Shown: one piece after another, positions 8,429-29,142 of the stretch | Position numbering within the stretch: the stretch's first letter is position 1 | How the letters are laid out: the number at the start of each line of letters is the position of its first letter | Assembly: GCA_945872365.1 (NCBI GenBank) | Contig: CAMBZJ010000005.1 | Span: 62,001 to 126,000, forward strand | Source: Klebsiella pneumoniae | GTDB taxonomy: Bacteria > Desulfobacterota > Binatia > UBA12015 | Direction of reading: 5' to 3' | DNA length: 64,000 bases | Notes under the pieces: generated by a model | The model's input: only the letters and a program-made list of their open reading frames with translations | The model's database searches: none | Told to the model about the DNA's origin: nothing | Made by a program: the position numbers and the translations under genes

Positions 8429-8436
8429 TTGACCCT

Positions 8437-11899: not shown

Positions 11900-13597
11900 T
11901 CAGCCGCCCGAGCCGTCCGCCATGAAGTACTGGCCGAGCAGGATGAACATCTCGTTCTCGGTACTCTCTCCGCCGGTGATCCTGCAGGCGTCGCAGTCGC
12001 CGTCGCCCGCGCCCGGCGAACTGTCGCAGGCGGCATCGTCGCTCGAACCTCCGCAGGCGGATCCGATCTTGCCGGCGACGCAAGCCGTGGGCCTGCAACG
12101 TCCAAGCGTCTGCTGCGCGCTCGTCGGGACCCGCGAGGCGCGGGTCACGAGTTCCACGTCCGGCGAGCCGTCCTCGGCGACGCCGTTGTTGTACAGGGAA
12201 CAGTAGTGCAGCGTGCGTTGCGCGGGGTCCGGCGAGTCGAACTCGAGTGGCGGATCGATCTGCAGGTCGACCGGGTCGTTGTAGATCGTGCTCTCGTAGA
12301 GCCGGCGGCCGTCGGGCAGGTCGATCGTGAAGCGCTTGCCGTGCTTGTGGGTGTGCGAACTCAGGTTGAACAGGCGGGCGCCCCGGGGCAACACGTGGTC
12401 GGCACAGACCGTCTGCGTCGTGAACGGAGGGGCATTGGCGGCGAAGATCCGCGAAGCGTCGAAGATCTGCGTCGTCTGCGCGCGCTGGTCCTTGGCGAAG
12501 TTGTAGTTCAGGCGCGCGTGCATGGTCTGGTCGGACTTCGTCAGGTTGAAGGCGTGCGAGTTCCAGAGCAGCACGCCCTTCATCGGGACCTGCGCGAAGA
12601 CACCGGGGTAGAAGGTCGTCATCGACTGCGCCTGCTGCGCGCCGCCGATCTGGAAGCGGTTGAAGCCGTTGCTAGGCGGCCCGTAGCCGATGCAGGCGAA
12701 CCCGTCGCGCGGGGTGCTCCCGCAAAGCCCGTCGCCACAGGCGTCCGGCACGCGCGGGTCGCAAGCCTCGGCGTCCTTCGCTCCACCCTTGCAGGTCCAG
12801 GCACCGAAGGATGGGTCGTCGAGTTGGTCGAGCGAAATGGGCGTGTAGTCGACGATCAGGTGATGGCTGTTCGTATCCTGGCGCAGTTCGGTCGACGAGA
12901 AGCGAAAGAACTCGCCGCTCGGATCGCGGAACTCCGCGGGCACCTGGTCGGTCACGTCGTAGACCGAGGCAAAGCAGACCTCGTGCTCGCTGCTCGCGGG
13001 CAGGCGCCACTCCGGCATGACGAGTTGCAGGCCCTCCCCCGCGGCCGGCGCCTCGAGCGGCTTGATCGCGATCGGCTCCGGTTCGGGCAGGCAGCCATCG
13101 AGGAGCGCCTGGGTTCCCTCCACGGTCCCCTCGCGCGGCGCGCCCGCGTAGATCCAAAGGCGGACAAGTTCGAGTTCGTCGGCGCCGAGCGCCGGCAGCC
13201 CGTTGGGCATGGGCGCCCCTTCGATCGCCACCGAAGGATCATTCCCGGCGAGCAGCTTGAGCCACAGGAAGCTGCGCTGCTTGTCGCCCGGGTAGACCCG
13301 CGGCAGGCGGCTCAACTGCGAGGGCGCCTCGAAGAGGTCGTCGTAGGAGGCCGACGCGGTCAGGTCGAGCCCGCCCTGCCGGGCACTGCCGTGACAGAGT
13401 TCCTGGGTGCAGCCGTGCTTCTCGAAGATCGTCTTCTGGATCCCGTCGTAGGTCGACGCGAAGCTCTGCCCGGCCTCGCAACTCGGCCCGACCGGCACCA
13501 CGGGGCCGCCGCCGCCGCCTCCTCCGCTCCCCCCGCAGGAGGCGAGCAGCGCTGCGCAGAGCGCGATGGAGGAGAGGCGTCGTCGGCTGGACTTCAT
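11900..13597 (-). CDS. Large Cys/His-rich lipoprotein, possible copper- or heme-binding
   Basis: 565 residues starting at the ATG at 13597. The N-terminus is a lipoprotein signal ([10 protein letters not shown], cleavage before Cys) followed by a Gly linker. Residues ~45-170 contain a CTQELCHG segment like the degenerate cytochrome-c-type domains that carry CHG and GGLDL motifs. The C-terminal ~350 residues hold repeated His clusters ([31 protein letters not shown]). These recall the two-domain copper type II ascorbate-dependent monooxygenase fold; the similarity is motif-level only. Many Cys in the tail suggest disulfides. A periplasmic or outer-membrane location is expected. The substrate is unknown. 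Confidence 0.7.
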
Positions 13598-13794
13598 GGT
13601 TGGCCTCGCTTGGTTTCGTTCGTGCGCGGGCCAGCGACCTGCATCGCGGCGCCGGCCTCCGGTTCCACACCTTGATCGCACACTCGGCCGCGCTTGTCAG
13701 CATGGGACCGACCGCCTCGTCGCACCCGCCCGGCCGACCCACCGAGGCGCCCGGCGAAATCAGACGCGCTGCGTCAGCACTGCGCGGCCCCCGG

Positions 13795-14310
13795 TCAGGC
13801 CATGTCGTCGTAACCGAGAAGGGCGCGGCCGAGCAGGACGATCACTCCGACGGTGATGAACGAGTCGGCGACGTTGAAGGCCGGCCAGAACCAGCCGTTC
13901 CAGTGCAGCGAGAGGAAATCGATCACCTCGCCCTGCACCAGCCGGTCGATCAGGTTGCCGACCGCGCCGCCGAGCACCGCCGCGCAGGCCAGCAGGACGA
14001 TCCGGCGCGAGGCCGGCGTCCGGCGCACGAAGCCCAGGATCGCGATCCCGGCGAGGACCGAGATCAACGTGAAGAACGGGATGCGGAACGCCGCCGAACG
14101 ACCGGCGAGCATGCTGAAGGCGGCGCCGGTGTTGCGCACGTAGGTGAGGTCGAAGAACCCGGGCAGGATCGGGCGCGTCTCGTGCAGGCGCATCGCCCCC
14201 GACACCGCGTGCTTGCTCCACTGGTCGAGCAACACGATCGCCGCGGCGACGCCGAGAACGAGCAGGTACTTGCCCGGAGCGTCGTCGCGGCTGTCGGTCG
14301 CGACGCTCAC
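13795..14310 (-). CDS. lspA: Lipoprotein signal peptidase (signal peptidase II)
   Basis: This inner-membrane aspartyl protease of 171 residues cleaves prolipoprotein signal peptides after lipidation. Four hydrophobic segments are visible. The catalytic aspartates lie in the two signature blocks GNLIDRLVQGEVIDF and FNVADSFI, and the conserved NTGAAFS is present. The start is the GTG at 14310, overlapping the ileS stop as GTGA, so translation is coupled to ileS; the open frame upstream of it is an ileS shadow. The ileS-lspA order is common in proteobacteria. Several lipoproteins in the window are its likely substrates. Confidence 0.96.
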   Translation of the reverse strand: MSVATDSRDDAPGKYLLVLGVAAAIVLLDQWSKHAVSGAMRLHETRPILPGFFDLTYVRNTGAAFSMLAGRSAAFRIPFFTLISVLAGIAILGFVRRTPASRRIVLLACAAVLGGAVGNLIDRLVQGEVIDFLSLHWNGWFWPAFNVADSFITVGVIVLLGRALLGYDDMA

Positions 14311-17129
14311 GACGCGGCCTCGAAACCGACGCGGACGAGGACGTCCGCGCAACGTGCGCAGGCCCCGGGATGGGTCGCCTGCGAGCCGACGTCGGGCAGC
14401 AGCATCCAGCAGCGCGCGCACTTCTCGCCCGCCGATCGCTCGATCGAGATGCCGAGCCCGCGGTGGAGCGCGCTCTCGTCGAGACCCCGGCCGTCGAGCG
14501 CCACCTGCGAGACGATGAACCAGTCCGGCAGCCAGGACGCGCGCTCGGCGAGGATTGCGGCGAGTTCGCCGGTCGACTCCAGCACGACGCGCGCTTCCAG
14601 GCTGTGCCCGATGCGACCCGCCTGGCGCTCGCCCTCGAGCGCCTTGGTCACCGCCGAGCGCACCGAGAGCAGCGTCTCGAAGCGCGCGGCGAGTGCGTCG
14701 TCGCGCCAGGCCGCGGGCGCGACCGGGAAGTCGGAGAGGAACACGCTCTCGGGGCGACCGGGCGGCGCGGGAAGGGCCGACCAGACGTCCTCGGCAAGGA
14801 ACGAGAGGATCGGTGCGAACAGTCCCGCGAGCGAGCGCGCGATCTCGTGCATGACCGTCTGCGTGCCGCGACGGGCCGCGTCGCCGGGAGCGCTGCAGTA
14901 GAGCCGGTCCTTGGTCACGTCGAGGTAAAGCGCGCTCAGGTCGACCGCGCAGTAGTTGTTGAACAGGTGGTAGACGGCGTGGAACTCGTAGGCCTCGTAG
15001 GCCGCGCGCGCTCGTTCGATGACCCGGGCGAGGCGGTCGAGGGCCCAGCGGTCGATCTCGACGAGGTCCGCGTAGGCGACCCGGTCGCGCTCCGGGTCGA
15101 AGCCGCCGAGATTCCCGAGCAGGAAGCGCGCCGTGTTGCGCAGTCGGCGATAGGCCTCGACCTGATGCCCGAGGATCTCCTTCGAGATGCGCACGTCGCC
15201 GCGGTAGTCCTCGGCCGCGACCCAGAGGCGCAGCACGTCGGCACCCATGTCTTTCAGGATCGAGTCCGGGGCGACGACGTTGCCGAGCGACTTCGACATC
15301 TTGCGACCCTGGCCGTCGAGGATGAAGCCGTGCGTGAGACAGGCGCGGTAGGGCGCATCGCCGCGCGTCGCGACCGCGGTGAGCAGCGAGGTGTGGAACC
15401 AGCCGCGGTGCTGGTCGGAGCCCTCGAGATAGAGGTCAGCGGGTGCGCGCAGCCCGGCGCGCCGCTCGAGCACCGCGGCGTGGCTCACGCCGGAGTCGAA
15501 CCAGACGTCGAGGATGTCGCGCTCCTTGCGGAACGACGTGCCGCCGCAGCCGCAGCGGAAGCCCGCCGGCAGCAGCTCGGCGACCGGCCGCGCGAACCAT
15601 GCGTCGGAACCCTCGCGCTCGACGATCGCCGCCACGTGGTCGGCGATCTCCGGCGTCAGATGGGCCTCGCCGCAGTCCTCGCAGAAGACGGCGACGATCG
15701 GCACGCCCCACAACCGCTGGCGCGAGATACACCAGTCGGGCCGGGTCGCGATCATGCCGCGGATGCGCTCGCGGCCCCAGGGCGGCACCCACTGCACGCG
15801 GTCGATCGCCTCGAGCGCGCGCTCCCGCAGGCCGGTGTCCTCCATCGATACGAACCACTGCTCGGTGCCGCGGAAGAGAAGCGGCTTCTTGCAACGCCAG
15901 CAGTGCGGGTAACTGTGGCGGATCGGCGCCTCGGCGACGAGCGCACCGGCGGCCTCGAGGATCTCGACGACGCGCCCGTCGGCGTCGAACACGCGCTGGC
16001 CCGCGAGTTCGGGCACCTCCCCGGTGAAGCGTCCGCGGCCGTCCACCGGCGAGTAGACGTCGAGCCCGTAGCGGAGCCCGACCAGGTAGTCGTCCTGCCC
16101 ATGGCCCGGGGCCGTGTGGACGACGCCGGTGCCGCTCTCGAGCGTCACATGGTCGCCGAGTACGACCGGTACATCGCGGTCGATCCAGGGGTGGCGGAAA
16201 GCCTTCCGCTCGAGCCGCTTCGGGTCGATCTGCAGGCGCGGCGCGCCGGGTTCCTCGCTCCGCCCGGTCGCGGCAAGGAACGCCTCGGCGAGTCCCTCGG
16301 CGACGACGACGGTCTCGCCGCCGTCGAGGCGCAGCCCCACGTAGGGCAATTCGGGGTGGAGCGAGAGCGCGAGATTCGCGGGCAGCGTCCAGGGCGTCGT
16401 CGTCCAGGCGACGAGGGACAGGCTTCCCGGCGGGGGAGCGCCGCCGACGAGTGCGTCGCCCAAGGCAGCCGCACCACCGGGCAGCGGAAAGCGGACGTAG
16501 ACGCTGCGCGACTTCTTGTCCTCGTACTCTACCTCGGCCTCCGCGAGCGCGGTCTCGCAGGAGGCGCACCAGTAGACCGGCTTCTTGCGCCGGTAGAGCG
16601 CGCCGGTGGCGGCGATCCGGCCGAGTTCGCGGATCTCCTGCGCCTCGTAGCCCGGCGCGAGCGTCAGGTAGGGGTCGGCCCAGTCGCCGAGCACGCCGAG
16701 CCGGCGCACCTCGTCGCGCTGGAGCCCGACGAACTTCCGCGCGAAGGCGTCGCAGCGACGACGCACCTCGACCGCGTCCATCGCGGCCTTCTTGTCGCGA
16801 CCGATCTCCTGCTCGACCTGAAGTTCGATCGGCAGCCCGTGACAGTCCCAACCCGGCACGTAGGGCGTGCGATGGCCGACCAGGTGCTTGTACTTGACGA
16901 CGATGTCCTTCAGCACCCGGTTCAGCACGTGGCCCAAGTGCATGTGCCCGTTGGCGTAGGGCGGGCCGTCGTGCAGGACGAAGATCGGCGCTTCCTCGCG
17001 CAACGCGAGCATGCGCGCATAGAGGCCGTCCTCGTCCCAGCGCGCGAGCATCTCCGGTTCCCGCTTCGCCGCGTTGGCCCGCATCGGGAAGTCGGTCGAC
17101 GGCAGGTTCAGCGTCGCGCGGTAATCCAT
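14307..17129 (-). CDS. ileS: Isoleucyl-tRNA synthetase
   Basis: This 940-residue class I synthetase charges tRNA-Ile and edits Val-tRNA-Ile. The nucleotide-binding HIGH equivalent is GPPYANGHMHLGH (around residues 55-67), KMSKS is intact (around residue 610), and the CP1 editing domain lies between. The C-terminus carries the four-Cys zinc finger (CARCWM...CARCADV) of the bacterial IleS type. The ATG at 17129 is preceded by no Shine-Dalgarno but by TTGAAA-N17-TAGCCG ending six bases before it. Its stop overlaps the lspA start. Confidence 0.98.
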   Translation of the reverse strand: MDYRATLNLPSTDFPMRANAAKREPEMLARWDEDGLYARMLALREEAPIFVLHDGPPYANGHMHLGHVLNRVLKDIVVKYKHLVGHRTPYVPGWDCHGLPIELQVEQEIGRDKKAAMDAVEVRRRCDAFARKFVGLQRDEVRRLGVLGDWADPYLTLAPGYEAQEIRELGRIAATGALYRRKKPVYWCASCETALAEAEVEYEDKKSRSVYVRFPLPGGAAALGDALVGGAPPPGSLSLVAWTTTPWTLPANLALSLHPELPYVGLRLDGGETVVVAEGLAEAFLAATGRSEEPGAPRLQIDPKRLERKAFRHPWIDRDVPVVLGDHVTLESGTGVVHTAPGHGQDDYLVGLRYGLDVYSPVDGRGRFTGEVPELAGQRVFDADGRVVEILEAAGALVAEAPIRHSYPHCWRCKKPLLFRGTEQWFVSMEDTGLRERALEAIDRVQWVPPWGRERIRGMIATRPDWCISRQRLWGVPIVAVFCEDCGEAHLTPEIADHVAAIVEREGSDAWFARPVAELLPAGFRCGCGGTSFRKERDILDVWFDSGVSHAAVLERRAGLRAPADLYLEGSDQHRGWFHTSLLTAVATRGDAPYRACLTHGFILDGQGRKMSKSLGNVVAPDSILKDMGADVLRLWVAAEDYRGDVRISKEILGHQVEAYRRLRNTARFLLGNLGGFDPERDRVAYADLVEIDRWALDRLARVIERARAAYEAYEFHAVYHLFNNYCAVDLSALYLDVTKDRLYCSAPGDAARRGTQTVMHEIARSLAGLFAPILSFLAEDVWSALPAPPGRPESVFLSDFPVAPAAWRDDALAARFETLLSVRSAVTKALEGERQAGRIGHSLEARVVLESTGELAAILAERASWLPDWFIVSQVALDGRGLDESALHRGLGISIERSAGEKCARCWMLLPDVGSQATHPGACARCADVLVRVGFEAAS

Positions 17130-17135
17130 CTTAGC

Positions 17136-17164
17136 CGGCTACCAACCGCGGCCGGGGCTTTCAA
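17136..17164 (-). promoter_or_regulatory. Candidate ileS promoter, probably leaderless
   Basis: On the minus strand TTGAAA (17164-17159), a 17-base spacer, then TAGCCG (17141-17136), six bases before the ileS ATG. This spacing places the transcription start at the start codon. Confidence 0.55.
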
Positions 17165-17574
17165 TTCGCGGCGGAATCGCGCCCCCGAACCGGCGCCTCG
17201 AGATCGACGACGACCGCGTTGGAGCGGGTATAGCCGCCGAAGAGCCGCGCGGCGCGCGCGAGCAGGTAGCGCTCGACGAAACGGTCGCGGATCGCGTCGG
17301 CGGCCGCGGAATCGTCCACCAGCCGCGCCCGACCCCGGCGGGTCTCACCGCCGACCTCGATCTCGACCGCCGCGTCGCGACGCAGGTTGCGGCACCACTG
17401 CGGTTCGTCGGCCCCCCCCGCGAGCAGCACCCGCGCGCCGTCGGGCACCCACCACAACGTCACCGTGCGCGGGCGACCGGTCCTGCGCCCGATCGTCGTC
17501 AGCCGGCAGTTCCAGCGCCGCGCGGCGCCGGGTGAGAAACCGAGACCACCACCGCCGTCCCGCTCAGAACCCAC
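17161..17574 (-). CDS. Ddn-like (deazaflavin/nitroreductase-family) protein
   Basis: 137 residues with the compact split-beta-barrel pattern of the Ddn/DUF385 family: LTTIGRRTGRPRTVTLWWVPDG near the start, WCRNLRRDAAVEIEVGG in the middle, then a hydrophobic C-terminal strand. Family members bind F420 or act in quinone/nitro reduction or lipid binding; cofactor use here is unknown. The GTG start at 17574 overlaps the end of the glutaredoxin-like gene by 11 bases, so both belong to the glycosyltransferase operon at its 3' end. It ends next to the ileS promoter. Confidence 0.7.
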   Translation of the reverse strand: MGSERDGGGGLGFSPGAARRWNCRLTTIGRRTGRPRTVTLWWVPDGARVLLAGGADEPQWCRNLRRDAAVEIEVGGETRRGRARLVDDSAAADAIRDRFVERYLLARAARLFGGYTRSNAVVVDLEAPVRGRDSAAN

Positions 17575-17782
17575 TGCCGCCTCCGGGCGCCACGTCGATG
17601 CGCCCGTCGCGCACGACCACCGGCACGATGCGCCGCCCGCCGGTCACCTTGAGGAACTCGGCGGTCGCCTGCGGTTCACGGCTCAGGTTCACCTCGATCA
17701 CCCGGTCCGGACCGGCGGCGAGCTCCGCGCGCAGGCGCTCGCAGTGCGTGCAGCCGTCGCGGGTGTAGAGCACGATCCTCAT
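17564..17782 (-). CDS. Glutaredoxin-like thioredoxin-fold protein
   Basis: 72 residues. The redox motif C-T-H-C follows the first strand (VLYTRDGCTHCERL), and the cis-Pro of the thioredoxin fold is at RRIVPVVV. The C-terminus ends in a flexible Gly-rich tail, so the last helix of canonical glutaredoxins is short or absent. It probably acts as a small thiol-disulfide exchanger in the cytoplasm. The ATG overlaps the previous gene's stop as ATGA. CTHC instead of CPYC is common among glutaredoxin-like proteins of this size. Confidence 0.8.
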   Translation of the reverse strand: MRIVLYTRDGCTHCERLRAELAAGPDRVIEVNLSREPQATAEFLKVTGGRRIVPVVVRDGRIDVAPGGGSGF

Positions 17783-18369
17783 GCGCCCGTCCGGCGCCGC
17801 TGCGCGTCGGCGAGAACTGATGCGCGCGAACGCGGGCCGCGCAGTCGACGCCGGGCGACGCGCAGTGCGAGCCGGGCGCTCGTCACCGGGGTAACGAACG
17901 CGGCCGACGCCACGCGGCGGAGCGCCCAGCCGACCAGGGCACCACCCCCGCGCCCGTCGCCGCCGAAGTGCTGCGCGATCGTCGCGACGCGGTGCACGTT
18001 CACCGGGAAGGAATCGAGGTTCTGGTTGAAGGCCATCATCGAGCGTGCGCGCAGGAGGAAGGCGAGCCGTCCGAGTTCGCCCATCGGCTCATCGCCGAGT
18101 TGTACGACGACCAGGTCGAAGCGCTTGGCTCGCAAGCGTCGCAGCAATTCCCAGCGGTGGCCCGGGCGGGCGACCTCGACCGCGAGTCCGGGGACGGCGA
18201 CGAGTCCGGTCGTGTCCTCGTCGAGGATCGCCTGGATCGAGGCGGCGGGGAACTCCGCCCGCAGGCTTGCCGCGATGTCGAGAACCTGGCGCGCGGACCC
18301 GGTCTGCACGAGCGCCACGTCGTGCACCCCGGCCCAGTCGACGTGGCGCAGGAAGGCGAGCGGGGTCAT
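17779..18369 (-). CDS. Small protein of unknown function in glycosyltransferase operon
   Basis: 196 residues from the ATG at 18369, which overlaps the stop of the large glycosyltransferase (ATGA). I do not recognise a named family. The first ~120 residues alternate strands and helices (VALVQTGSARQVLDIAASL, DLVVVQLGDEPMG), resembling one Rossmann-like half of a GT9/GT-B glycosyltransferase. A hydrophobic LGRLAFLLRARSMM stretch and an Arg-rich C-terminus follow. It could be an accessory or degenerate glycosyltransferase half. The overlap on both sides ties it to the cluster. Confidence 0.6.
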   Translation of the reverse strand: MTPLAFLRHVDWAGVHDVALVQTGSARQVLDIAASLRAEFPAASIQAILDEDTTGLVAVPGLAVEVARPGHRWELLRRLRAKRFDLVVVQLGDEPMGELGRLAFLLRARSMMAFNQNLDSFPVNVHRVATIAQHFGGDGRGGGALVGWALRRVASAAFVTPVTSARLALRVARRRLRGPRSRASVLADAQRRRTGA

Positions 18370-21300
18370 CGCGCCCCTCCCGCGCGCCGCCGGACCGGAT
18401 CCACGGGCCCCGGGAGCGTCGCCGACGCGGACGCCGACGGGTGTCCGTCGGCACCGCCGTCCTCGCCCGGAACCGACACCCCGGCCTCGGCATAGGCCTG
18501 AAACAGCCGCTCGCCGACCGCGCGCCAGTCGAAGCGCTGCTCGACGAAGACCCGCGCGCGCTGCGCCAGGCCTGCACGCGCCGGCGCGTCGCGCAGCAAC
18601 CCGATCACCTCGTCGGCGAAGTCCCGCGCCCGGTCGGCGATGCGGATCTCCCCGGCGCCGGCGCCGAGCCCTTCGGCGCCGATCGTCGTCGACACGACCG
18701 GGCTGCCGCTCGCCATCGCCTCGAGGATCTTGAGCCGCGTCCCCGAGCCGCGCAGGATCGGCGCGACGAAGACGGTCGCGCGCCGATAGTGCGGCGCGGT
18801 CGCCGGCACGAGCCCGGTCACTTCCATGCCGGGCGTGGTTACCGCCAGGTCGAGCAGTTCCGCAGGCGGATAGGCCCCGACCACGCGGAACACGACCTCG
18901 GGCACCGCCTCGCGCACCAGTGGGAGCACCTCGCGGGCGAACCACTCGACCGCCTCGACGTTCGGGTCGTGGCGGAAGAATCCGACGAAGAGCACCGTCG
19001 CCGGCTCCGACTCGCCCGGGGCGCGTAGCGGGAAGTCGGCGCACGAGACACCGTTGGGCACGACGGCGACGTGCGACGGGTCGACCCAGCGCGCGAGTTC
19101 CGCGCGATCGTCGTCGCTCATCGCGAGCACGAGGTCGGCCGCCTCGACGTGCCCCAGCTCGTAGTCGAGCATGCGGAGTTCGTCGCGGCGGAGTCGACGG
19201 CGGCGCAACCCCAAGCTCTCCGCCTGGTGCGCACGCAGAGCGGCGACGAATGCGACGTCGTGCTCGACCAGGACGCGCAGCAGCCCTGCGCAGGGCGGCG
19301 GCAGGTAGTGCGCCATGTGCGTGTACTCGACCTGGACCACATCGAAGGGCCGGCGATCGAGCTGGAACTCGACCTCGTCGAACATCGCCTGCGACCAGAA
19401 GCCCTCGGTCGCCTTGGGGAGGGGGCCCTTGCCGCGTCCGTGCAGGTCGCGCGGGACGAGAACTACCTCGCTGCACAGCGACCGCAGCCGCACCCGGCTC
19501 TCCGGCGCGGCCTCGGCCTCGGTGTCATAGTAGGTGACGAGCGTCACCTCGCAGCGGTCGCGCATCGCGCACAGCAGGTTCATCATGCGGGTGGCACCAC
19601 CGTGCACGTTGGGGACCGGGCTATAAGGGGAGACGAGCAGCACCCGGACCTTCGCCCCCGGCACGCGGGCGTCCGCCGCGTGGTAGCGGGCGCGGTAGGC
19701 GTGCCGGTGGCGCGAGAGCGCGAAGATCTCCTCGTCGGAGAGTGCTCGCGGCACGCGCGACTCGGCGAAGCGCGCGCGCATCGTCGGCGGGATCTGCTTC
19801 AGCAGGCCGATCCAGGTGAACAGCGCTGCGCGCCCGCCCTGGTCGTGCAGCACCCGGAAAGGCGTCACGGCGAGGCCGGCCAGGTGCCGGCGCAGGATCG
19901 AACGGGAGTCGACGTTCTTCCAGAGCAGTGCTGCGAGGTTCTTCACGAAGAAGCTGTGGATCCGCCCCTCGCTCCAGATGCGCCGCGTCGTACCGCGGTG
20001 CTTGTGGTGGACGAAGGAGCGCGGCGCCATGAGCGACGGCCAGCCGCGCTTCCAGGCGCGGTAGCCGAGATCGACGTCCTCGATGTAGACCGGTGAGAAC
20101 ACCGCCTCGTCGAAGCCGCCGAGTTCCATGAACTTGGCGCGGTCGTAGGCCGAGGCGCCGCCGCCGGCGAAGAACACCGGGTAGAGCGCGTCCGCGTCGA
20201 AGCGGTCGAGGTGGAACAGGCGCACGCTGCCCTGCTCGAGCCGCGCATGCACCTTGCCGGTCTCCCAGCGCTCCTTCTTCGGGTCGATGAAGTCGATCTG
20301 ACAGGAGATCCCGAAGGCACCCGGCTCCTCGACGAAGGCGTCGAGCAGCGGCTGCAAGAAGTCCGGCTCGACGACCATGTCGTTGTTGAGCAGCACAAGG
20401 ACTGGGTTGCGCGACTCGGCGACCCCGCGATTGGTCGCCCCGGCGAAGCCGTGGTTGCGGTCGAGGCGGACGACCCGCAGTTGCGGGTGACCCATCGCTT
20501 CGAGGACCGCGATCGTGTCGTCCTCGCTGCCGTTGTCGACGACGATCACCTCGTCGTCGGGACGGCCGTGGACGCGCAGCGCCTCGAAGAGCGGCGGCAG
20601 GCTCATCTGCAGGAGTTCCGCGCCATTCCAGGTCGGGATGACCACCGAGACCGGCGCGTCGGCCGGGATCGCGGACACCGGCGGTGCGTCGCCGAGGCCG
20701 CGCGGGCGACGGCTCGCACCGCCGATCCGCGCGAGCAGGTCGGTCGTCGCGATGGCGGCGGCGACCAGCAGCGCGAGCGGAAGCGAGAGAACGGCGAGGG
20801 TCGCGACGAAGGCCCGGGTCGCGAGCCAGCCGGCCGCCCGCGCAGCACGCCGCGCGGTCCGCACCGCGCGGCGCAGCAGAAGTCCCAGGATCGAGGTGTT
20901 GCGGATCTGCTCGACCGCCTCGCGGCGTGCCGACTCGACCTGCTCCTCGCGCGCCTTCTCCTCACGCTCGAGATCGCGGCGCAGGGACTCGTCCGCCTCC
21001 CGGCTTGCGACTTCTGCCCGCTCGACCTCGGTCCGAACCTGTCCGAGGACCTTCCACTCGTAAGAGCGCTGGATCTCCTCGCGCGCCCCGCGAACGACGC
21101 TCTCGATCACGCGCTCGTCGACGTGCGCGTCGAGGCGCTCGCGCACCATGCGCTCGACCCGCGCATCGACCTGCTCGTTCACCTGCAGGATCAGCCGCTC
21201 CAGGTCGGCGCTGCGCTGCTGCGAGCCCGCCGCCTGCACGGCGACGAGGGCCAATTCGGCACGCAGCCGCGCCACATCGACGACCACCCGGGCGGCCTCC

Positions 21301-23117
21301 GCGCTTTCGAGCGCGACAACCGGGAAGCCGGGGTCGAGCGCACCGGCCACCGGCACCGTAGTGTCGTGCAGGAAGAGGAACGACTCCTCCGGGACGGGCA
21401 CCTCGGACACGACACCGTCGAGCAGGTAGCGGGCGATGAAGGCGACGCCGCCCTGCGGCAGCTCCGGGGTCGGGCCGCACTTCCAGAGGCAGACGCGGCC
21501 CCCCGCGAAGGGGCTCGTCGGCCGAAGATGCTCCTCCCCCACCACCGGCGAAGCGACGAGCGAGAAGCGCAATTCCCACTCCCGCCCGCGCGAGTGCTCG
21601 ATCGGCCGGAACTCGAAGCGCTGCCAGCCGTCGCGCGGAAGCACCGGCGCGGGGACGATCACGCGTGCAGCGGCCGCACCGCCGCTGCCGGCCTCGCGCA
21701 ATTCGAGCACCAGGTTCGCGCCCTCGACCGGCGGTTCCGTCCAGACCAGGGCGTCGATCCGGCAGAGCCGGTCGAAGGAGGCGCGGAAGCGCCGCATCGG
21801 TGCATGGTCCCCGCCCAGCCGCGGCGAGACCGAGCGCGTGCCGTCGACGAATTCCTCGGCGAGGAGCGCCGACTCCTTGCCGGGCATCTCCTCGCGCCGC
21901 GCGTCGGCGGCGACCCACGCATGGCCTCCATGGTCGGCCGCGTGACGCGGCGCGCGACAGAAGCGCCACAGCGGCTCGACCGCGCGCTCCCACGAAAAAG
22001 ACGCGCGCGCGGCCTCGAGGCGTGCGGTGCGCGCCGCGGGATCGGGGTCGTCGAGCACCGCCTCGATCGCCGCCGCGACCGCCACCGGATCGTCGGGGGC
22101 GACGACGCGACCGAGCCGCTCGCGCTCGACGAGTGCCGCCAGGTCGTCGCCGGCGGTCACGACCATCGGGCGCAGCGCCCAGATGTAGTCGAGCGTGCGG
22201 GTGCGAAAGGCGAACTCGGACTCGACGCCGCGGCGGTGCAGGCTCACGCCGACGTCGCACTCGAGCAGCCAGCGCTGCCGCTCCTCGTAGGGTACCCAGT
22301 CGACGAACGACGCACCACGACCCTCGATGCCGAGTTCGCGCGCGAGCGCGATCGCATCGCGCGCGATCGCCATCTCGCCGATCTCCGGGTTGGGATGGCG
22401 GGTGCCCAGAAAGAGCGTCTTCACCTCGGGGCGCCGCGTGCGCAGCAAGGCAGTCGCGCGCACCAGCGTGAGCGGATCGACCCAGTTCCACATGCCACCC
22501 GCCCAGAGCACGACGCGATCGTCGACCCCGATGCCCGGCACGACGCCGCGGACGAGCGGTGCGCCCGCGACCGGCGGCGTCTCGGAGATCCCGAAGGGCA
22601 CGAGGTCGACGAGCGAGCGCAGCTCCGGGTCGCGCTCGTAGTTCGCGCGGTTCACCCGCCCGGCGGCGGCGAGCATGCCGAGCCAGAACGCGCGCTGCGA
22701 CTCGCTCGCGCACAGAAAGAAGTCGCCGTGCTCTAGGTGGTGCTGGAGCCAGCGCAACGCGAGCAGCGGGCGACCGCCGGCGCGCGCAAATCCGTCGCCG
22801 TACAGGTCGAGATTGGACAGCACAAAGGGATCGTAGAGGTCGACGATGCAGGGCTTCTTCGGCGCGGAGACGAGTTCCATGCGGCCCGGCAGCACGACCG
22901 CCGAGCATGCATCGACAAGCGTGCCGAGCGCGCCGCCACCCGCCAACGGCGCGAGGCGGAGTCCCGCGACCTCGCGCGGCAGCTCGCTGCCGTCGGGCGC
23001 GCCCAGCACGACGTCCTCGCCGCGGCGCGCCAGGGCCGCCGCCATCTCGAAGGCCCGCGCGGCCGAACCCGCCATGCGGGCGCCCAACCGGTCCCAGCTC
23101 ACCACGAGAATGCTCAC
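18366..23117 (-). CDS. Giant multi-domain glycosyltransferase (GT4-beta-coiled coil-TM-GT2-GT4)
   Basis: 1583 residues. In order: an N-terminal GT4-type GT-B module (~1-395); a beta-rich accessory domain (~440-590, containing LCRIDALVW) shared with the next two genes; a long Glu/Arg-rich coiled coil (~625-745); a hydrophobic membrane segment (~765-800); a GT2 GT-A module (~820-1110, VSVVIPTWNGAELL, VIVVDNGSEDDT, NNDM as the DXD-like motif); and a second GT4 module (~1150-1545, GSGTRLKILEAMASGSPVV with the EX7E-type motif). It probably adds several sugars to one glycan at the inner membrane. The GTG start overlaps the upstream stop (GTGA). Donors and acceptor cannot be read from the sequence. 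Confidence 0.88.
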   Translation of the reverse strand: MSILVVSWDRLGARMAGSAARAFEMAAALARRGEDVVLGAPDGSELPREVAGLRLAPLAGGGALGTLVDACSAVVLPGRMELVSAPKKPCIVDLYDPFVLSNLDLYGDGFARAGGRPLLALRWLQHHLEHGDFFLCASESQRAFWLGMLAAAGRVNRANYERDPELRSLVDLVPFGISETPPVAGAPLVRGVVPGIGVDDRVVLWAGGMWNWVDPLTLVRATALLRTRRPEVKTLFLGTRHPNPEIGEMAIARDAIALARELGIEGRGASFVDWVPYEERQRWLLECDVGVSLHRRGVESEFAFRTRTLDYIWALRPMVVTAGDDLAALVERERLGRVVAPDDPVAVAAAIEAVLDDPDPAARTARLEAARASFSWERAVEPLWRFCRAPRHAADHGGHAWVAADARREEMPGKESALLAEEFVDGTRSVSPRLGGDHAPMRRFRASFDRLCRIDALVWTEPPVEGANLVLELREAGSGGAAAARVIVPAPVLPRDGWQRFEFRPIEHSRGREWELRFSLVASPVVGEEHLRPTSPFAGGRVCLWKCGPTPELPQGGVAFIARYLLDGVVSEVPVPEESFLFLHDTTVPVAGALDPGFPVVALESAEAARVVVDVARLRAELALVAVQAAGSQQRSADLERLILQVNEQVDARVERMVRERLDAHVDERVIESVVRGAREEIQRSYEWKVLGQVRTEVERAEVASREADESLRRDLEREEKAREEQVESARREAVEQIRNTSILGLLLRRAVRTARRAARAAGWLATRAFVATLAVLSLPLALLVAAAIATTDLLARIGGASRRPRGLGDAPPVSAIPADAPVSVVIPTWNGAELLQMSLPPLFEALRVHGRPDDEVIVVDNGSEDDTIAVLEAMGHPQLRVVRLDRNHGFAGATNRGVAESRNPVLVLLNNDMVVEPDFLQPLLDAFVEEPGAFGISCQIDFIDPKKERWETGKVHARLEQGSVRLFHLDRFDADALYPVFFAGGGASAYDRAKFMELGGFDEAVFSPVYIEDVDLGYRAWKRGWPSLMAPRSFVHHKHRGTTRRIWSEGRIHSFFVKNLAALLWKNVDSRSILRRHLAGLAVTPFRVLHDQGGRAALFTWIGLLKQIPPTMRARFAESRVPRALSDEEIFALSRHRHAYRARYHAADARVPGAKVRVLLVSPYSPVPNVHGGATRMMNLLCAMRDRCEVTLVTYYDTEAEAAPESRVRLRSLCSEVVLVPRDLHGRGKGPLPKATEGFWSQAMFDEVEFQLDRRPFDVVQVEYTHMAHYLPPPCAGLLRVLVEHDVAFVAALRAHQAESLGLRRRRLRRDELRMLDYELGHVEAADLVLAMSDDDRAELARWVDPSHVAVVPNGVSCADFPLRAPGESEPATVLFVGFFRHDPNVEAVEWFAREVLPLVREAVPEVVFRVVGAYPPAELLDLAVTTPGMEVTGLVPATAPHYRRATVFVAPILRGSGTRLKILEAMASGSPVVSTTIGAEGLGAGAGEIRIADRARDFADEVIGLLRDAPARAGLAQRARVFVEQRFDWRAVGERLFQAYAEAGVSVPGEDGGADGHPSASASATLPGPVDPVRRRAGGAR

Positions 23118-26044
23118 GCGCCCTCCCCGAAACTCCGGAACGCGAGTGCGCGGCCCGCGACCACCTCGCCGCCGACGCGCAACTCCCCCGCGTGCGAGGG
23201 CCCGTGCCAGAGCAGCACCTCGTTGCCCGGCCCCGCCCCGGGCGCCTCGGCGCGCAGGCGCAACTTCGAGCCGGCGCCGCCCGACGACGGGCGATCGAAC
23301 TCGACCGAGACGTGCGTGCGATCGACGAGACGGCCCGCCTCCACCTCGCGCCGCCCCAATTCACGACCGCTCTCGTCGAAGACCGACAGTTCGAGCAGGT
23401 GGTCGTTGCGACGCCAGAAGGTCCCGACCAGGACGTCGACGCGGCACACGCCGGGGCCGTGCACCGGGATGTCCTGCTCCACCGCCCGAGCTGGCCCGAC
23501 GGTCGCGCCGGCGTCGGCGGAGAACTGCCAGGCGTCGTAGGGCGAGTCCGCCGGTTCGAGCGCGACGACAGAACCATCGCCCCCGTCGAGCTCGATCGGC
23601 GCCGGGAGTTCGGTCGAGCGCGCACGCGGGCCCCGCTCGACGATGTCGAGAAGACCGTCCACCAGGGGATCCGACTGCACGTGCGGACCATAACGGAAAA
23701 CGACGTCACGCCGCGCGCGGCGCGCCATCCCGCGCCGGCGCTCCGGGTCGCCGGCCAGGTCGAGCAGGGCCGCCTCCCAGGCGGCCGCGTCGGCCGCGAG
23801 CAGGCCGGTCTCGCCGTCCCGGATCGCCGTGCGGAAGGCGAGCGTCGGGCTCGCCACGACCGCTACCCCGGCGAGCGCGGCTTCGAGGAATTTGACCTCG
23901 CTCTTCGCCTCGTTGAACCGGTTGGGCCGCTCGAGCGGCACCACGCAGACGTCGAGCCCGGCCAGGTGGCGCGGGAACTCGCTCCAGGGCAGCAGCGGCA
24001 GGCGCTCGATGCGCTCGCGCGACTCCGCGAGTTGCGCCGGTAGGGTCGCCGGCCCGGCGACGACGAGGCGCGCGTCGGGCAGGCGGTGCAACACGCCCTG
24101 CAGGGGGGCGGCAATCGACGCGAGGTCGCGATCGTGGGTGTCGGTGCCGGTGAGAAACCCGATGCGCAACCCCTCGGCGCCGCGCCGCGCGGGGTCGTCG
24201 TCGCGCACGACGCGAGCGTGCCGGGCCGCGTCGAGTCGTTCGAGCAGCGCGCGCCCGAGCCCGTTGCGCACCAGCAGTCCGGGTACGCCGAGCGAGCGGG
24301 CAGTGTCGACGAGTTCCTCCGTCGACCCCAGGAAGGCGTCGCTCGCCGCGAGGCTTCGACCGTAGGCGTCGAGTGTCCAGCGGAACCCGCGGGCGATCTC
24401 CTCGCGCGGGTCCGAGAGGGCCGCCGCATCGCAGTCCGCCTCCGAGAAGACCAGGTCGTCGGCAGAGAACACCACCGGCACGCCGCGGCGCCGGGCGTTG
24501 GCGACGACCGCGGCCACGGTCGCAGCGAAGGGCGCGCGGGCGAGCACGATGCAGTCGGCGACCTCGGCCGCGGCGCGGGCGCGGGCGTCGGAGTGGTGGA
24601 GCACCTCGGAACGGACGCCGCGCAGCGCCAATCGTTCCACCAGGTGCCAGACGCGGTAGCGGAGGGGGGCGCCGTCGACCCCGGCCAGGAAGAGGACCGA
24701 GCGCAACCGCGCGCGGGGCAGGCTCCGCGGGGGCGCCGTCGACGCGGAGGCGCTGGCCGGAGCGGGGACCGGGGCCGAACCGGCCGAACCACCCGAGGCG
24801 ATCGGGCCGACGGCCGGGCGGACGGGCGCCGGCCGGGCGCGCTCCGCCTCGCGCAGCACCTCGCGGTAGAGCGCCTCGGCGGCGCGCGCCTGGCCCGCAG
24901 GCGTGACCAGTGCCGGGGGCGGCGACGCGGCGAGACGATCGAGCAAGCCGCGGTCGCCGGCGAGACGATCGAGCGCCGCGGCGAGGCCGGTGACGCTTCC
25001 GGTGTCGAAGACGAGCCCGTTCACGCCGTCCCGTAAGACCTCCTCCGGGCCGCCGCAGTCGCTCGTCACCACCGGGATGCCACGGACGAGCGCCTCCCGC
25101 GTCACGAGCGAGCAGGACTCCCGCATGAGCGAAGGCACGACGACCACGTCGGCCTCCGCCAGCGCGTCGTCGAGGCCGCCGGGGGAAAAGCCGGGCAGGA
25201 ACTCGACCCGGGCGGGGCCGCGCCACGGCGAAGGCTCGGCTGCGTCGACCGCGTACAGCCGCAGCAGGACGTCCGCACTGCGCAGGCGTGCAGCCGCTTC
25301 GCGCAGGACTTCGAGTCCCTTTTCGCGGTTGCCCGCACCGCCGACGAAGACCACGTGCAGCGCGTCGCGATGCACGCGGGCCGCGCGCCGCGCGGCGAAG
25401 CCGGGCGCGGGCGGCTCGATGCCGTTCTCCTGGACCTGCACCAAGTCGGCGGCGAGGCCGTTCGCGATCAGGCTGTCGCGCAGGAAGGCGGTCGGGGTGA
25501 GCACGCGGGCGACCTGGCGCAGGGCGCGGGCGAGTGCTGCCCGGCGGTCGGCAAAGCCGACCTCCGCGTGCCCGAAGCAGCGCTCCGGATCGGGGATCGG
25601 CGAGCATGGGCCGCCGCCCGGGGCGAGGCGGAAGAGACAGGGGCAAAGCCACCACCAGTCGTGCATCGTCCACACCACCGGGATCGACGCGGCGGCCGCG
25701 GCGTCGATCACCCCGACGCCGAGCGCCTGCAAGCCGTGGAGGTGCACGATGTCCGGGCGGCGCTCGGCGAGGAAGCGGGCGAAGGACGCTTGTGCCGGCG
25801 GGTCGTCCCATCCCTCGCGCGACCACGGGTGGAAGGCACCGCCCAAGTTCACCCGCCAGGTCGCGATCCCGTCGACCGGGTCGGTGCGGATCGCGCCGAT
25901 CGGCTCGGCCGCCGTGGTGCGTCCGGCGAAGACGTCGAGCACGTGGCCGCGGTCGGCGAGCGCGCGCGAGAGACGTCGGCAGACGAGCGTCGCGCCACCC
26001 TGAAAGTCCGGCGCGTAGAGGGCGATCGCCTGCGCGATCCTCAC
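23114..26044 (-). CDS. Tandem GT4 glycosyltransferase with C-terminal accessory beta domain
   Basis: 976 residues. Residues 1-400 are a complete GT4 module (DFQGGATLVCRRLSRAL, DIVHLHGLQALG, RESCSLVTREALVRGIPVV). A Pro/Ala/Ser linker (~400-440) leads to a second GT-B module (~444-830, VLFLAGVDGAPLRYRVWHLV, NRFNEAKSEVKFLEAALAGV) that is paralogous to the module in the upstream neighbour. The last ~120 residues form the beta-rich accessory domain (VCRVDVLVGTFWRRND). Two active modules in one chain suggest transfer of two sugars, or one active plus one regulatory half. The GTG start overlaps the previous stop as GTGA. It is cytoplasmic or peripheral; no membrane segment is seen. Confidence 0.87.
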   Translation of the reverse strand: MRIAQAIALYAPDFQGGATLVCRRLSRALADRGHVLDVFAGRTTAAEPIGAIRTDPVDGIATWRVNLGGAFHPWSREGWDDPPAQASFARFLAERRPDIVHLHGLQALGVGVIDAAAAASIPVVWTMHDWWWLCPCLFRLAPGGGPCSPIPDPERCFGHAEVGFADRRAALARALRQVARVLTPTAFLRDSLIANGLAADLVQVQENGIEPPAPGFAARRAARVHRDALHVVFVGGAGNREKGLEVLREAAARLRSADVLLRLYAVDAAEPSPWRGPARVEFLPGFSPGGLDDALAEADVVVVPSLMRESCSLVTREALVRGIPVVTSDCGGPEEVLRDGVNGLVFDTGSVTGLAAALDRLAGDRGLLDRLAASPPPALVTPAGQARAAEALYREVLREAERARPAPVRPAVGPIASGGSAGSAPVPAPASASASTAPPRSLPRARLRSVLFLAGVDGAPLRYRVWHLVERLALRGVRSEVLHHSDARARAAAEVADCIVLARAPFAATVAAVVANARRRGVPVVFSADDLVFSEADCDAAALSDPREEIARGFRWTLDAYGRSLAASDAFLGSTEELVDTARSLGVPGLLVRNGLGRALLERLDAARHARVVRDDDPARRGAEGLRIGFLTGTDTHDRDLASIAAPLQGVLHRLPDARLVVAGPATLPAQLAESRERIERLPLLPWSEFPRHLAGLDVCVVPLERPNRFNEAKSEVKFLEAALAGVAVVASPTLAFRTAIRDGETGLLAADAAAWEAALLDLAGDPERRRGMARRARRDVVFRYGPHVQSDPLVDGLLDIVERGPRARSTELPAPIELDGGDGSVVALEPADSPYDAWQFSADAGATVGPARAVEQDIPVHGPGVCRVDVLVGTFWRRNDHLLELSVFDESGRELGRREVEAGRLVDRTHVSVEFDRPSSGGAGSKLRLRAEAPGAGPGNEVLLWHGPSHAGELRVGGEVVAGRALAFRSFGEGA

Positions 26045-27714
26045 GCGACCCGCCCCGGGGAGGGCCGACCCGCGACTTCCGCGACAGCGAAAGCGTCACG
26101 ACCGAGTGCAGCCGGCCAGGCCGCGAAGGCCCGCAGGACGAGACGACCATCGAGCGGTGCACCGTCGAGCCGGGCGGGCTCCTCGCCCGGCTCGAGGTCG
26201 CCGAGTCCGAAACTCACCGCGTCGCGCGGTGGGCCGCGCAGCGCCAGCACGAGCGTGAACCGGGCCCCGGCCGAATCCGGCTGCTCCGGCACGTCGAGCG
26301 CGAACCAGGCGCGATCGGGAAGCTCGTCGACCGCCACCCGCGCGCGCGCGATCGGCGCGCCGGATCCACGCCGGAGTGCGACCTCGAGCTCGCCTCCCGA
26401 GTGCAGGCCGTAGGTGACCGTGTGCACGTCGACGCGACAGAGTCCGTCGAGCCGCGCGACGAAGTGCTGCTCGATCGCGTGGCCGCCGCAGAGCGGCGGC
26501 GACTCGCGCAGCGCCGCGACGGCCTGCAGCGCCCCGGGATGCGCGTCCGCCTCGAGCGCGGTGCGCGCCGCCGGTACACACCACGGCGAGTCGCCGGTGC
26601 GCGTGGGCGGCGCCGTCGCTCCGCGCGCGAGGTCGCGCCGCAGGTCCTCGAGCAGGACCGCGAGTTCCCGGGCGCGCGGGGCCGGGGCGAAACGCACCTC
26701 CACATCCGCCCGGGCGGCTTCGCCCAGGCGCCGTCGCACCGGCCGATCCGCGACGATCTCGCGCAGGGCGCGTTGCCAGCCGTCGCCGTCCGCGGCGAGC
26801 ATCCCGTTGTCGCGGTGGCGGATCGCCGCCCGCATGGCGCGCGAGGGCGTCGCCACCGTCGGCACACCGGCGACCGCGGCGTCGAGGTACTTGATCGCGC
26901 CCTTCGCGGCGGCGAAGCGCCGGTCGATCTCGAGCGGCGCGATCGCGGCGTCGCAGGCGGCGATCCACACGGGCAGGTCGGTCCAGGGAACGAGCGGACG
27001 CCGCGCCACCCGCAGGCCGTACGCCCGCAGGGCGGCGCCGGGATCGACCGGCCCGAGCAGGAGCAGGCGCGCTCCGGGGAACTCGGCGAGCACCCCGGCG
27101 AGCGCTCCGGCCGCGAGCGCGAAATCCCGGTCGTGGCTCGGCGTGCCGCTGAAATAGCCCAGCACCACCGCGTCGTCGGCCGCGTCCGGGAAGCACTCGC
27201 GCCGCAGCCCACACGCGGCATCGGCTCGCGCCGCGGCCGCATCGCCGAGCGCGAGTTCGGCGCGGCTCACCGAGTTGGGGTGCAGGACGGCCGGCAGCCC
27301 GGCCGCGCGCGCCTCGTCGAGCAGCGCCGCGGTCGGGACGATGACTCGATCGCAGCGCTCGAGGGTCGCCCGGTAGCGGCGCAGGCCTTCGAACCAGAGC
27401 GCGCGCTCGGCCTCGGGGCGCGACGTCCACTCCGGGAAGAGCGTCGGATCGTCGACGAAGACCAGGTCGTCGATCGCGCCCACCACCGCGACGCCCGCCG
27501 CACGCGCCTCGTCGATCGCGAGTGCGACCGCCGAGGTCTCCGGCACGCGGTAGAGAAAGATCAGGTCGTGGCGGGCGGCCTCGGCGCGGAGGCGCGGGTC
27601 GGTGAAGGAAACGACCGTCGCTTCTCCTCCGACCAGGCGGAGTTGCTCGGCGCGATGCAGGACCTCGTACCGGTGGCAGAAGCCGTCGATGCCGCTCGCG
27701 AAGAGGACCCGCAT
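26041..27714 (-). CDS. GT4-like glycosyltransferase with accessory beta domain
   Basis: 557 residues. The first ~370 form a GT-B glycosyltransferase (VLFASGIDGFCHRYEVLHRA at the N-terminus, FSGTPSHDRDFALAAGAL, AAAKGAIKYLDAAVAGVP in the donor half). The N-terminal half is somewhat divergent from classical GT4, and the same variant recurs as the second module of the downstream 976-residue protein. Residues ~412-545 are the accessory beta domain (LCRVDVHTVTYG). The ATG at 27714 has no Shine-Dalgarno; TAGGCG ends eight bases upstream. It is the first gene of the run of six overlapping genes down to the Ddn-like protein. Confidence 0.85.
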   Translation of the reverse strand: MRVLFASGIDGFCHRYEVLHRAEQLRLVGGEATVVSFTDPRLRAEAARHDLIFLYRVPETSAVALAIDEARAAGVAVVGAIDDLVFVDDPTLFPEWTSRPEAERALWFEGLRRYRATLERCDRVIVPTAALLDEARAAGLPAVLHPNSVSRAELALGDAAAARADAACGLRRECFPDAADDAVVLGYFSGTPSHDRDFALAAGALAGVLAEFPGARLLLLGPVDPGAALRAYGLRVARRPLVPWTDLPVWIAACDAAIAPLEIDRRFAAAKGAIKYLDAAVAGVPTVATPSRAMRAAIRHRDNGMLAADGDGWQRALREIVADRPVRRRLGEAARADVEVRFAPAPRARELAVLLEDLRRDLARGATAPPTRTGDSPWCVPAARTALEADAHPGALQAVAALRESPPLCGGHAIEQHFVARLDGLCRVDVHTVTYGLHSGGELEVALRRGSGAPIARARVAVDELPDRAWFALDVPEQPDSAGARFTLVLALRGPPRDAVSFGLGDLEPGEEPARLDGAPLDGRLVLRAFAAWPAALGRDAFAVAEVAGRPSPGRVA

Positions 27715-27765: not shown

Positions 27766-29142
27766 TCAGGAATCGGTGCCGGCTCCCGGCCGGGACGGCA
27801 GTTCCGCTTCCGCGTTTGCGTGCACCGGCCGGACGCGCTGGCCGAACCAGCGCATCGCAAGGTCGAGCGGACCCGCGGCGCCGGGTCGGCAATCGGGATG
27901 CGCCTCGCCGGGATCCTGCAGCAGGTCGAAGGCACAGGCGATCGAGGTGTCGCCGTCCTCGAGGGCGACGACCTTCGCGTGAAGGCCGTCGTAACCGGCG
28001 CGCATGCGCCGGCCATCGCGACCGACGTCCTCGACCCACACCGGGTGGAGTTCGTCGAGGTTGCGGGACTGGACGGCGGTCGGCACCGCGATGCCGACCG
28101 CTCCGAGCACGGTCGCGAACACGCCGAGCGTCGAGACGCGCCGCTCTACCCACTCGCCCGCGCGCCGTCCCCCGGGGGTCTTTACCAGGAGGGGCACCCG
28201 CACCTCCGGCTCGTAGGGCGGACGGCCGTGGCCGTTCAAGCCGTGCTCGCCGAGCATCTCGCCATGGTCGCCGACCACCACGACGAGGGAGCGGTCCCAG
28301 CGGCCCGCGGCGCGCAGTGCGGCGACGAGTCGTCCGAGCGCCCGATCGGCCGCGGCGACGCGCGTGTCGTGGAGCGCGGAGCCGCGTGCGTTCGCCTCGC
28401 GCGTCGGGTGCTGCGACGGCCCGCCCGCGGGCAGGTCGGAGGCACCGGTCGCGGGCGGTGCGAAGCGCGACGCGAGATCAGCGGGCGGGTCGGACGCATC
28501 TCCCCCGTCGGCGAGGCTCGCAAATACGAAGGAGTGCTCAGAGTGGCGCGCGAGCCAGTCCGCGACCCGCTCGGCGAGCACCTCGCCCTGCACCAGGTCG
28601 GGGGCAGCATCGAAGTGCGAGAAGCCGCGGGCGAAGCCCAGGCCCGGCCGCAACTCGTCCCCGTTGCCGACGAAGGCCGCCGTGCGGAAGCCGTCGCGGG
28701 CGAGGAGCTCCGCCATCGTGGTCGCGTCGTCGGCGATCGCCCGCGCCCGCCCGACCTCGCCGGCCCCGGCGCGCTCCGCGCCGTGGAAAGACGGCCAGAG
28801 GCCGGTCGAGAGTGAGGCGACGGCGGGCACGCACCAGGTGGCCGGGCTCACGGCGCGTGCGTAGGTGATCGACTCCCGGGCGAGCGCCTCGATCTCCGGC
28901 GAACTCGGCTCGGGGTACCCGAACAGCGAAAGGTGGTCGGCGCGCACCCCGTCGAGGGCGACCAGCACCACGTCGTAGGGGGGCGGGGCCGCAGCGACAG
29001 GCCGCCGCTGGCAGGCGGAGGCGGACACGGCCAGCAGGAGAAGAGCCACGAGACCCGGCGGGCCGCAGCGTTGCGGCGCCCGGCGCTGCACTCGCGTCCC
29101 GGCGGACTGGGGGAGGGAGGACGTCGGAAAAACGGGAAACAT
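27766..29142 (-). CDS. Sulfatase-like/alkaline-phosphatase-superfamily lipoprotein
   Basis: 458 residues. The N-terminus has a lipobox (LLLLAVSASAC), so an envelope lipoprotein is expected. The alkaline-phosphatase superfamily core is clear: VLVALDGVRADHLSLFGYP with the first metal-binding Asp, PAVASLSTGLWPSFHG, and VVGDHGEMLGEHG with the metal-binding Asp-His. The formylglycine motif C-x-P-x-R of true sulfatases reads C-V-P-A-V, so the arginine is missing. The activity could therefore be phosphodiesterase or phosphoglycerol-transferase-like rather than sulfatase. It stands just upstream of the glycosyltransferase operon (51-base gap), which suggests glycan modification. Confidence 0.82.
   Translation of the reverse strand: MFPVFPTSSLPQSAGTRVQRRAPQRCGPPGLVALLLLAVSASACQRRPVAAAPPPYDVVLVALDGVRADHLSLFGYPEPSSPEIEALARESITYARAVSPATWCVPAVASLSTGLWPSFHGAERAGAGEVGRARAIADDATTMAELLARDGFRTAAFVGNGDELRPGLGFARGFSHFDAAPDLVQGEVLAERVADWLARHSEHSFVFASLADGGDASDPPADLASRFAPPATGASDLPAGGPSQHPTREANARGSALHDTRVAAADRALGRLVAALRAAGRWDRSLVVVVGDHGEMLGEHGLNGHGRPPYEPEVRVPLLVKTPGGRRAGEWVERRVSTLGVFATVLGAVGIAVPTAVQSRNLDELHPVWVEDVGRDGRRMRAGYDGLHAKVVALEDGDTSIACAFDLLQDPGEAHPDCRPGAAGPLDLAMRWFGQRVRPVHANAEAELPSRPGAGTDS

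Follow-up and report, generated by a model that had tools for sequence, protein, structure and literature searches.

A homologous beta domain shared by three adjacent glycosyltransferases, with a possible role in acceptor-glycan binding

Three consecutive, overlapping genes in a 64,000-nucleotide stretch of DNA (the window) encode glycosyltransferases that each carry a beta-rich segment outside the catalytic modules, which raises the question of whether these segments represent one domain and what such a domain would contribute to the enzymes. The first-pass annotation had proposed that the three proteins share this segment and may form one assembly line for a surface glycan. The reading that we favour, with a probability of roughly 55%, is that the segment is an accessory domain binding the acceptor glycan, and that the three glycosyltransferases, together with a small fourth protein, build one envelope glycan; we infer both the carbohydrate or acceptor binding and the common pathway.

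Genes 1, 2 and 3 encode proteins of 557, 976 and 1583 amino acids, respectively, on the minus strand and at the positions at which they had first been annotated, with a 4-base overlap between each neighbouring pair (genes 1/2 and genes 2/3). The three genes are indeed adjacent, though the set needs correcting by a coupled fourth gene, whose ATG overlaps the stop of gene 3 by 4 bases in the window and whose homologues (~196–220 aa) lie downstream of gene 3 in nine relatives. In the protein of gene 4, an FNxxLDxFPxxxxR stretch is conserved and the C-terminal part is hydrophobic. Large opposite-strand ORFs (e.g. 20211–22736) were set aside as high-GC artefacts, since the usual GC3 bias is seen in the frames chosen instead. 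The features of the cluster are the following:

26041..27714, minus strand: gene 1 (557 aa), GT4 with a C-terminal beta domain (ORF, Pfam)
26635..27714, minus strand: gene 1 GT4 module, residues ~1–360 (Pfam PF13692/PF00534)
26116..26505, minus strand: gene 1 beta domain, residues ~404–533, LCRVD at 425–429 (profile; AlphaFold pLDDT 89)
23114..26044, minus strand: gene 2 (976 aa), GT4, GT4 and beta domain (ORF, Pfam)
24920..26044, minus strand: gene 2 first GT4 module, residues ~1–375 (Pfam PF13439/PF13692/PF00534)
23630..24703, minus strand: gene 2 second GT4 module, residues ~448–805 (Pfam)
23126..23506, minus strand: gene 2 beta domain, residues ~847–973, VCRVD at ~869 (profile)
18366..23117, minus strand: gene 3 (1583 aa), GT4, beta domain, helical/coiled region, membrane segment, GT2 and GT4
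21918..23117, minus strand: gene 3 N-terminal GT4 module, residues ~1–400, 'DLYDPF' type (Pfam)
21426..21833, minus strand: gene 3 beta domain, residues ~429–564, LCRID at 451–455 (profile; AlphaFold model)
20814..21356, minus strand: gene 3 charged helical stretch, putative coiled coil, residues 588–768
20733..20813, minus strand: gene 3 hydrophobic membrane segment, residues ~769–795 (sequence, orthologues)
19980..20654, minus strand: gene 3 GT2 module, residues ~822–1046 (Pfam PF00535/PF13641)
18483..19622, minus strand: gene 3 C-terminal GT4 module, residues ~1166–1545 (Pfam PF13692/PF13439; NCBIfam TIGR03087 below cut-off)
17779..18369, minus strand: gene 4 (196 aa), small conserved protein with no Pfam match (ORF, relatives)

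The GT4 assignment follows from Pfam matches to Glycos_transf_1 / Glyco_trans_1_4 above the curated cut-off in all three proteins, and the GT2 assignment from Glycos_transf_2, which exceeded its curated cut-off only in gene 3 (residues 824–998, E 6e-24). The beta segments of all three proteins matched nothing above Pfam cut-off, and a GT4 module directly precedes the beta domain in each protein. Gene 1 is a paralogue of the second half of gene 2, beta domain included (35% identity over 541 columns, E 3e-40). The N-terminal GT4 of gene 3 belongs to a different subfamily from the beta-linked GT4s of genes 1 and 2; that subfamily also includes a stand-alone GT4-beta protein of 567–598 aa in candidate division CSSED10-310.

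The cluster is flanked by housekeeping genes (ileS, lspA, alaS) and a sulfatase-like gene, for which reason a pathway assignment through neighbouring genes was given up; no sugar-nucleotide, exporter or polymerase gene directly adjoins the cluster in the window. The gene of the sulfatase/phosphodiesterase family lies just upstream of gene 1 (27766–29142, minus strand), and in some relatives (L107, L112, L114) homologues of it lie close to the cluster. A polysaccharide flippase-type protein (Polysacc_synt_3, E 1e-73) is encoded 16 kb from the cluster (43542–45188, minus strand).

By sequence comparison, the beta domains of genes 1, 2 and 3 are homologous and measure ~130 residues each, which refines the 120–150 residues first given for a shared segment that proved to be real. 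Searching its own genome, the gene 1 segment recovered the domains of genes 2 and 3 at E 5e-5 and 1e-4, respectively, and no fourth copy at E values up to 10. A profile of 25 members outside the window's class scored the three domains at 38.0, 28.3 and 28.2 bits (1e-10 to 1e-7), against a best score of 0.8 bits among 2000 shuffled proteins, and another profile, drawn from Chloroflexota and CSSED10-310, matched them at 5e-24, 1e-15 and 5e-12; both profiles are independent in sequence, though not in discovery, because their members were gathered by iterative search starting from the window. The sharing of the segment by the three overlapping neighbours is therefore borne out by the own-genome search and by the class-excluding profile set against shuffled proteins, and the motif positions first noted (423, 865 and 450) were off by a few residues only.

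That motif, LCR[VI]D, had been described as the core of the domain. It does lie on a core beta-strand, the second of the fold, but its C and R are not family-wide: among 98 aligned domains only the hydrophobic positions of the string were widely kept (L 84%, V/I 85%), while the polar positions were less so (C 35%, R 46%, D 51%). Better conserved than the motif were a Q-x-F ahead of it (Q 78%, F 78%), an F-x-P-[IL]-x-x-S-x-G-[RK] loop (P 78%, S 75%, G 73%), a V-x-L-W strand (W 70%) and a terminal G-x-L-x-F. Since C and R vary freely across the family, LCR[VI]D was rejected as a catalytic or metal-binding core. Judging from conservation, the S-x-G-[RK] loop and the Trp would be the candidate binding-site residues, should a site exist.

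The AlphaFold2 model of the gene 1 domain, based on 31 sequences (mean pLDDT 89.3, pTM 0.81), was all-beta, with eight main strands and a short helix between the fourth and fifth. The gene 3 domain was modelled with the same strand order (pLDDT 77, pTM 0.63, low in a loop), the two models not being fully independent because the alignment is largely common to both; it ended in the helix that begins the coiled region, of which 35 residues were modelled as helical. The gene 2 domain aligns in sequence through the same elements as the two modelled domains. Structural neighbours were sought also with Foldseek and in a viral library. The top solved neighbours of both models were phage Douge gp20, a phi812 baseplate protein, a PBCV-1 capsid protein and the Bxb1 tail tip (Z 9.5–11.9), followed in one or both lists by polyvinyl-alcohol esterase, the Cwp84 lectin-like domain, the CBM BT0996-C, CBM15, CBM6, CBM36, phloem lectin and PHR domains (Z ~6.5–8.9). 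The CBMs (Z ~7–8.3; up to ~8.8 with the lectins) rank below the phage tail domains (Z 10–12), and Z values near 8 may reflect only the common beta-sandwich arrangement, as the beta-sandwich neighbours include non-lectins (capsid, PHR and GOLD domains). From these models we confidently predict that the domain is a beta-sandwich, probably of the lectin/CBM/viral jelly-roll kind; the jelly-roll-like fold anticipated for the segments holds for the two modelled domains (genes 1 and 3), with viral jelly-roll or tail domains and CBMs as neighbours. The phage-like neighbours do not indicate a phage origin of the domain, because the plasmids and phages searched (tblastn), PHROGs and a scan of viral contigs all gave no match to it.

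None of the CBM families having Pfam models matched above cut-off (CBM_6 was touched by 1 out of 31 members, at E 0.086), and no PDB chain was matched by profile. Kynurenine formamidase, a marginal single-sequence PDB match (E 0.0012), was absent from the profile searches and was discarded. The family nearest to the domain in Pfam was DUF6212 (PF19717), a 395-position family without assigned function: 3 out of the 31 members matched it (best E 1.7e-8), and its profile positions ~101–234 align to the beta domain. The window domains, however, scored 15.9 and 18.9 bits with partial coverage, below the gathering cut-off of 26.4, and DUF6212 had no match in the window's own genome or in 14 control genomes. 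At the level of sequence, the beta domain is thus related in part to DUF6212 without being a member, and it is a family without Pfam description save for this partial overlap. The initial impression that no described function could be named for the segment agrees with this, as Pfam offers only that partial, function-less overlap. Accessory CBM-like domains on glycosyltransferases are, as a kind, already known.

Every one of the 14 genomes searched in the window's family carried the domain, most often in two to five copies, as did the members sampled from a second family in the window's class. Adjacent orthologues in the order gene 1, gene 2, gene 3 were seen, besides the window, in four relatives (G395, G397, G402, G405); elsewhere, gene 3 was found beside gene 1 or gene 2, or alone, with the others on different contigs. 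In a tree of 95 domains, the gene 1-type and gene 3-type clades each span both families (100/99 each), so at least these two types diverged before the family split and were kept individually. In the first family, the gene 2-type domains make up a separate clade (100/98), and those of the second family lie beside it in a weakly supported arrangement; the grouping of gene 1-type with gene 2-type domains was also weak (91/44). A gene set kept across two families gives indirect support to the idea of one assembly line. The named relatives, which come from a scan with the full-length gene 3 alignment and are relatives of gene 3 and not of the domain, were 'Deltaproteobacteria' MAGs, including Polyangiaceae bacterium UTPRO1, which GTDB places in Binatia (Desulfobacterota_B).

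Alternatively, the domain could be a structural spacer of no distinct function that spread as a GT4-beta unit was duplicated; the paralogy of gene 1 with the C-terminal half of gene 2, domain included, might suggest as much. We consider this improbable, given that gene 3, with a GT4 of another subfamily, still retains the domain, that the gene 1-, 2- and 3-type domains occupy separate clades kept within and across families, and that the domain is attached to unrelated enzymes in distant phyla.

More widely, the domain was patchily distributed in the window's phylum (18 out of 395 sampled genomes) and was found in 46 out of 201 Chloroflexota genomes and 5 out of 8 CSSED10-310 genomes. In the 58 full-length carriers, Pfam models were matched as follows: GT4-type in 11, DUF6541 in 7, PMT_2 in 6, GT2 in 5, DUF2142 in 2 and Wzy_C in 2. 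GT87, membrane GT-C-like enzymes and O-antigen-ligase-type proteins were also among the carrier types, and further carriers were TM-beta-TM proteins of 240–290 aa, with transmembrane segments assigned from a simple hydropathy count. For some carriers a part in glycan assembly is not obvious, namely the small TM-beta-TM proteins and an SH3-domain protein (L234). Because carriers span GT4/GT2 proteins, membrane enzymes, TM-beta-TM proteins and the SH3 protein, the domain is apparently associated with glycan assembly on both sides of the membrane, and not exclusively with GT4/GT2. The expected broad association with glycosyltransferases was found in kind (GT4, GT2, PMT_2/GT87, DUF2142, Wzy_C-type and DUF6541-type), the TM-beta-TM and SH3 proteins being exceptions. 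In Chloroflexota, the loci L228, L230, L231, L242 and L243 encode polytopic membrane proteins with the beta domain between TM1 and TM2, or stand-alone TM-beta-TM proteins, and the polytopic protein of L228 matches DUF6541.

Carriers also occur side by side elsewhere. In particular, locus L028 (G237:C104, ~6189–18298) has four consecutive carriers, an independent parallel to the window cluster: two are GT2-GT4 proteins of ~1250 aa, and the others measure 828 aa (a radical SAM/methyltransferase protein) and 631 aa. Adjacent pairs were found in G602:C35 and G510:C5. These runs, the presence of the domain on all three members of one conserved gene set, and phage tail and capsid domains as the best structural neighbours would suit a docking or oligomerisation module that joins the three glycosyltransferases here, and polytopic polymerases elsewhere, with no need for contact with sugar. 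We regard such a role, the main rival reading, as rather unlikely, for most carrier genomes outside the window's class have a single copy, so that homotypic docking would not be general, and CBM-like folds are frequent lower in the structural lists.

Acceptor binding is the best supported reading because the domain adjoins catalytic glycosyltransferase modules, recurs on unrelated glycan enzymes and has a lectin-like predicted fold; the TM-beta-TM layouts, the fusions to polytopic proteins and the presence of CBM-type ABC exporters (Wzt_C) in the genome are consistent with it. Among the roles first suggested for the segment, a glycan-binding module is our best guess. A nucleotide-sugar role is unlikely because the domain recurs on unrelated glycan-building enzymes on both membrane faces. 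Placed directly after GT4, the putatively lectin/CBM-like beta-sandwich would hold a lipid-linked glycan acceptor, raise the local substrate concentration and keep the chain with the enzymes, and genes 1–3 with the small gene 4 would constitute a cytoplasmic, membrane-associated glycosyltransferase set making one envelope glycan. More speculatively, the N-terminal GT4-beta part of gene 3 might cap or modify chains at a distance determined by the putative coiled coil, and its membrane-proximal GT2-GT4 part might extend them, as in Klebsiella WbbB and O7 ORF6.

In gene 3, 181 residues, many of them charged helix formers, separate the beta domain from the membrane segment, whereas nine orthologues have 94–129 aa there; the longer stretch possibly indicates that a length-setting spacer has changed. 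The membrane segment, conserved in the orthologues, consists of one hydrophobic run that has a proline at its centre in most copies. Its insertion is probably re-entrant or hairpin-like and not crossing, because both halves of the protein need nucleotide sugars. The beta domain had itself been suggested as a long-chain ruler, which is not plausible; a better candidate is the adjoining helical, probably coiled-coil stretch of gene 3.

With respect to export, Wzt_C gave two matches on contig C28 of the window's own genome, unlinked to the cluster; the same contig has an ABC ATPase beside a Wzm-like permease, and therefore a second glycan pathway is present. The permease and ATPase (L267:14712–16675, G000 contig C28) lie near glycosyltransferases and a WecB-like epimerase. 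Wzt_C exporters were found in 18 out of 21 genomes searched, and Wzy_C proteins were also found in the own genome.

A more specific form of the acceptor-binding reading, compatible with it, would make gene 3 a terminator-ruler-polymerase like O12 WbbB or O7 ORF6, in which GT4-beta caps, the coiled coil sets length, GT2-GT4 polymerises and a Wzm/Wzt exporter with a CBM recognises the cap. The part order is the same (catalytic module, CBM-like domain, helical stretch, membrane segment and two C-terminal glycosyltransferases), coil length differs among orthologues (94–181 aa), and Wzt_C exporters occur in the own genome as in most of those searched. The exporter, however, is on another contig, only the window's copy has a long coil, which may therefore be a mere spacer, and Wzy_C proteins are present too. 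We therefore hold this form to be possible but doubtful.

It is tentatively conceivable, and no likelier than that, that the domain founds a widespread family of acceptor-glycan-binding modules used on both membrane faces, with cytoplasmic GT4/GT2 carriers and with a TM-flanked domain on the extracytoplasmic faces of GT-C, ligase and polymerase proteins, and that the window holds a previously undescribed assembly line with a coiled-coil ruler. The holding and measuring of growing chains by bacterial glycosyltransferases is known for few enteric and mycobacterial systems. A family without Pfam model on unrelated glycan-assembly enzymes gives an annotation handle for many uncultured lineages and offers a direct way to test how general accessory acceptor-binding domains are, and the set retained by these uncultured bacteria suggests that they have an envelope glycan in common.

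Among known systems, the WsaF family (WsaF_N/WsaF_C) resembles one carrier, the Chloroflexota protein L238, in which the beta domain follows a WsaF-like GT4; the GT4 modules of the window, in contrast, match generic GT4 models only. O7 ORF6 and O12 WbbB are terminator/polymerase proteins of the ABC-transporter-dependent O-polysaccharides of Klebsiella pneumoniae (PMC11231755). Their N-terminal enzyme is a methyltransferase-kinase or Kdo transferase, whereas that of gene 3 is a GT4, and the gene 3 cluster is without adjacent Wzm/Wzt. The order of parts is alike, with an N-terminal enzyme, a CBM (in O7), a coiled coil (putative in gene 3) and C-terminal glycosyltransferases, and the AlphaFold model of O7 ORF6 has an additional, unexplored CBM in its N-terminal part, before the C-terminal glycosyltransferase modules (PMC11231755). 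The mycobacterial arabinosyltransferase EmbC serves as the experimental precedent for acceptor binding. It differs in that it is of the GT-C type and acts on the outer face, whereas the window proteins are GT-B/GT-A and presumably cytoplasmic. This glycan-polymerising transferase likewise has an accessory beta-sandwich, located C-terminally (PMC3044687), a layout similar to that of the PMT_2/GT87-type carriers of the beta domain, and substituting conserved Trp residues in this C-terminal CBM of EmbC lowers both acceptor binding and activity (PMC3044687).
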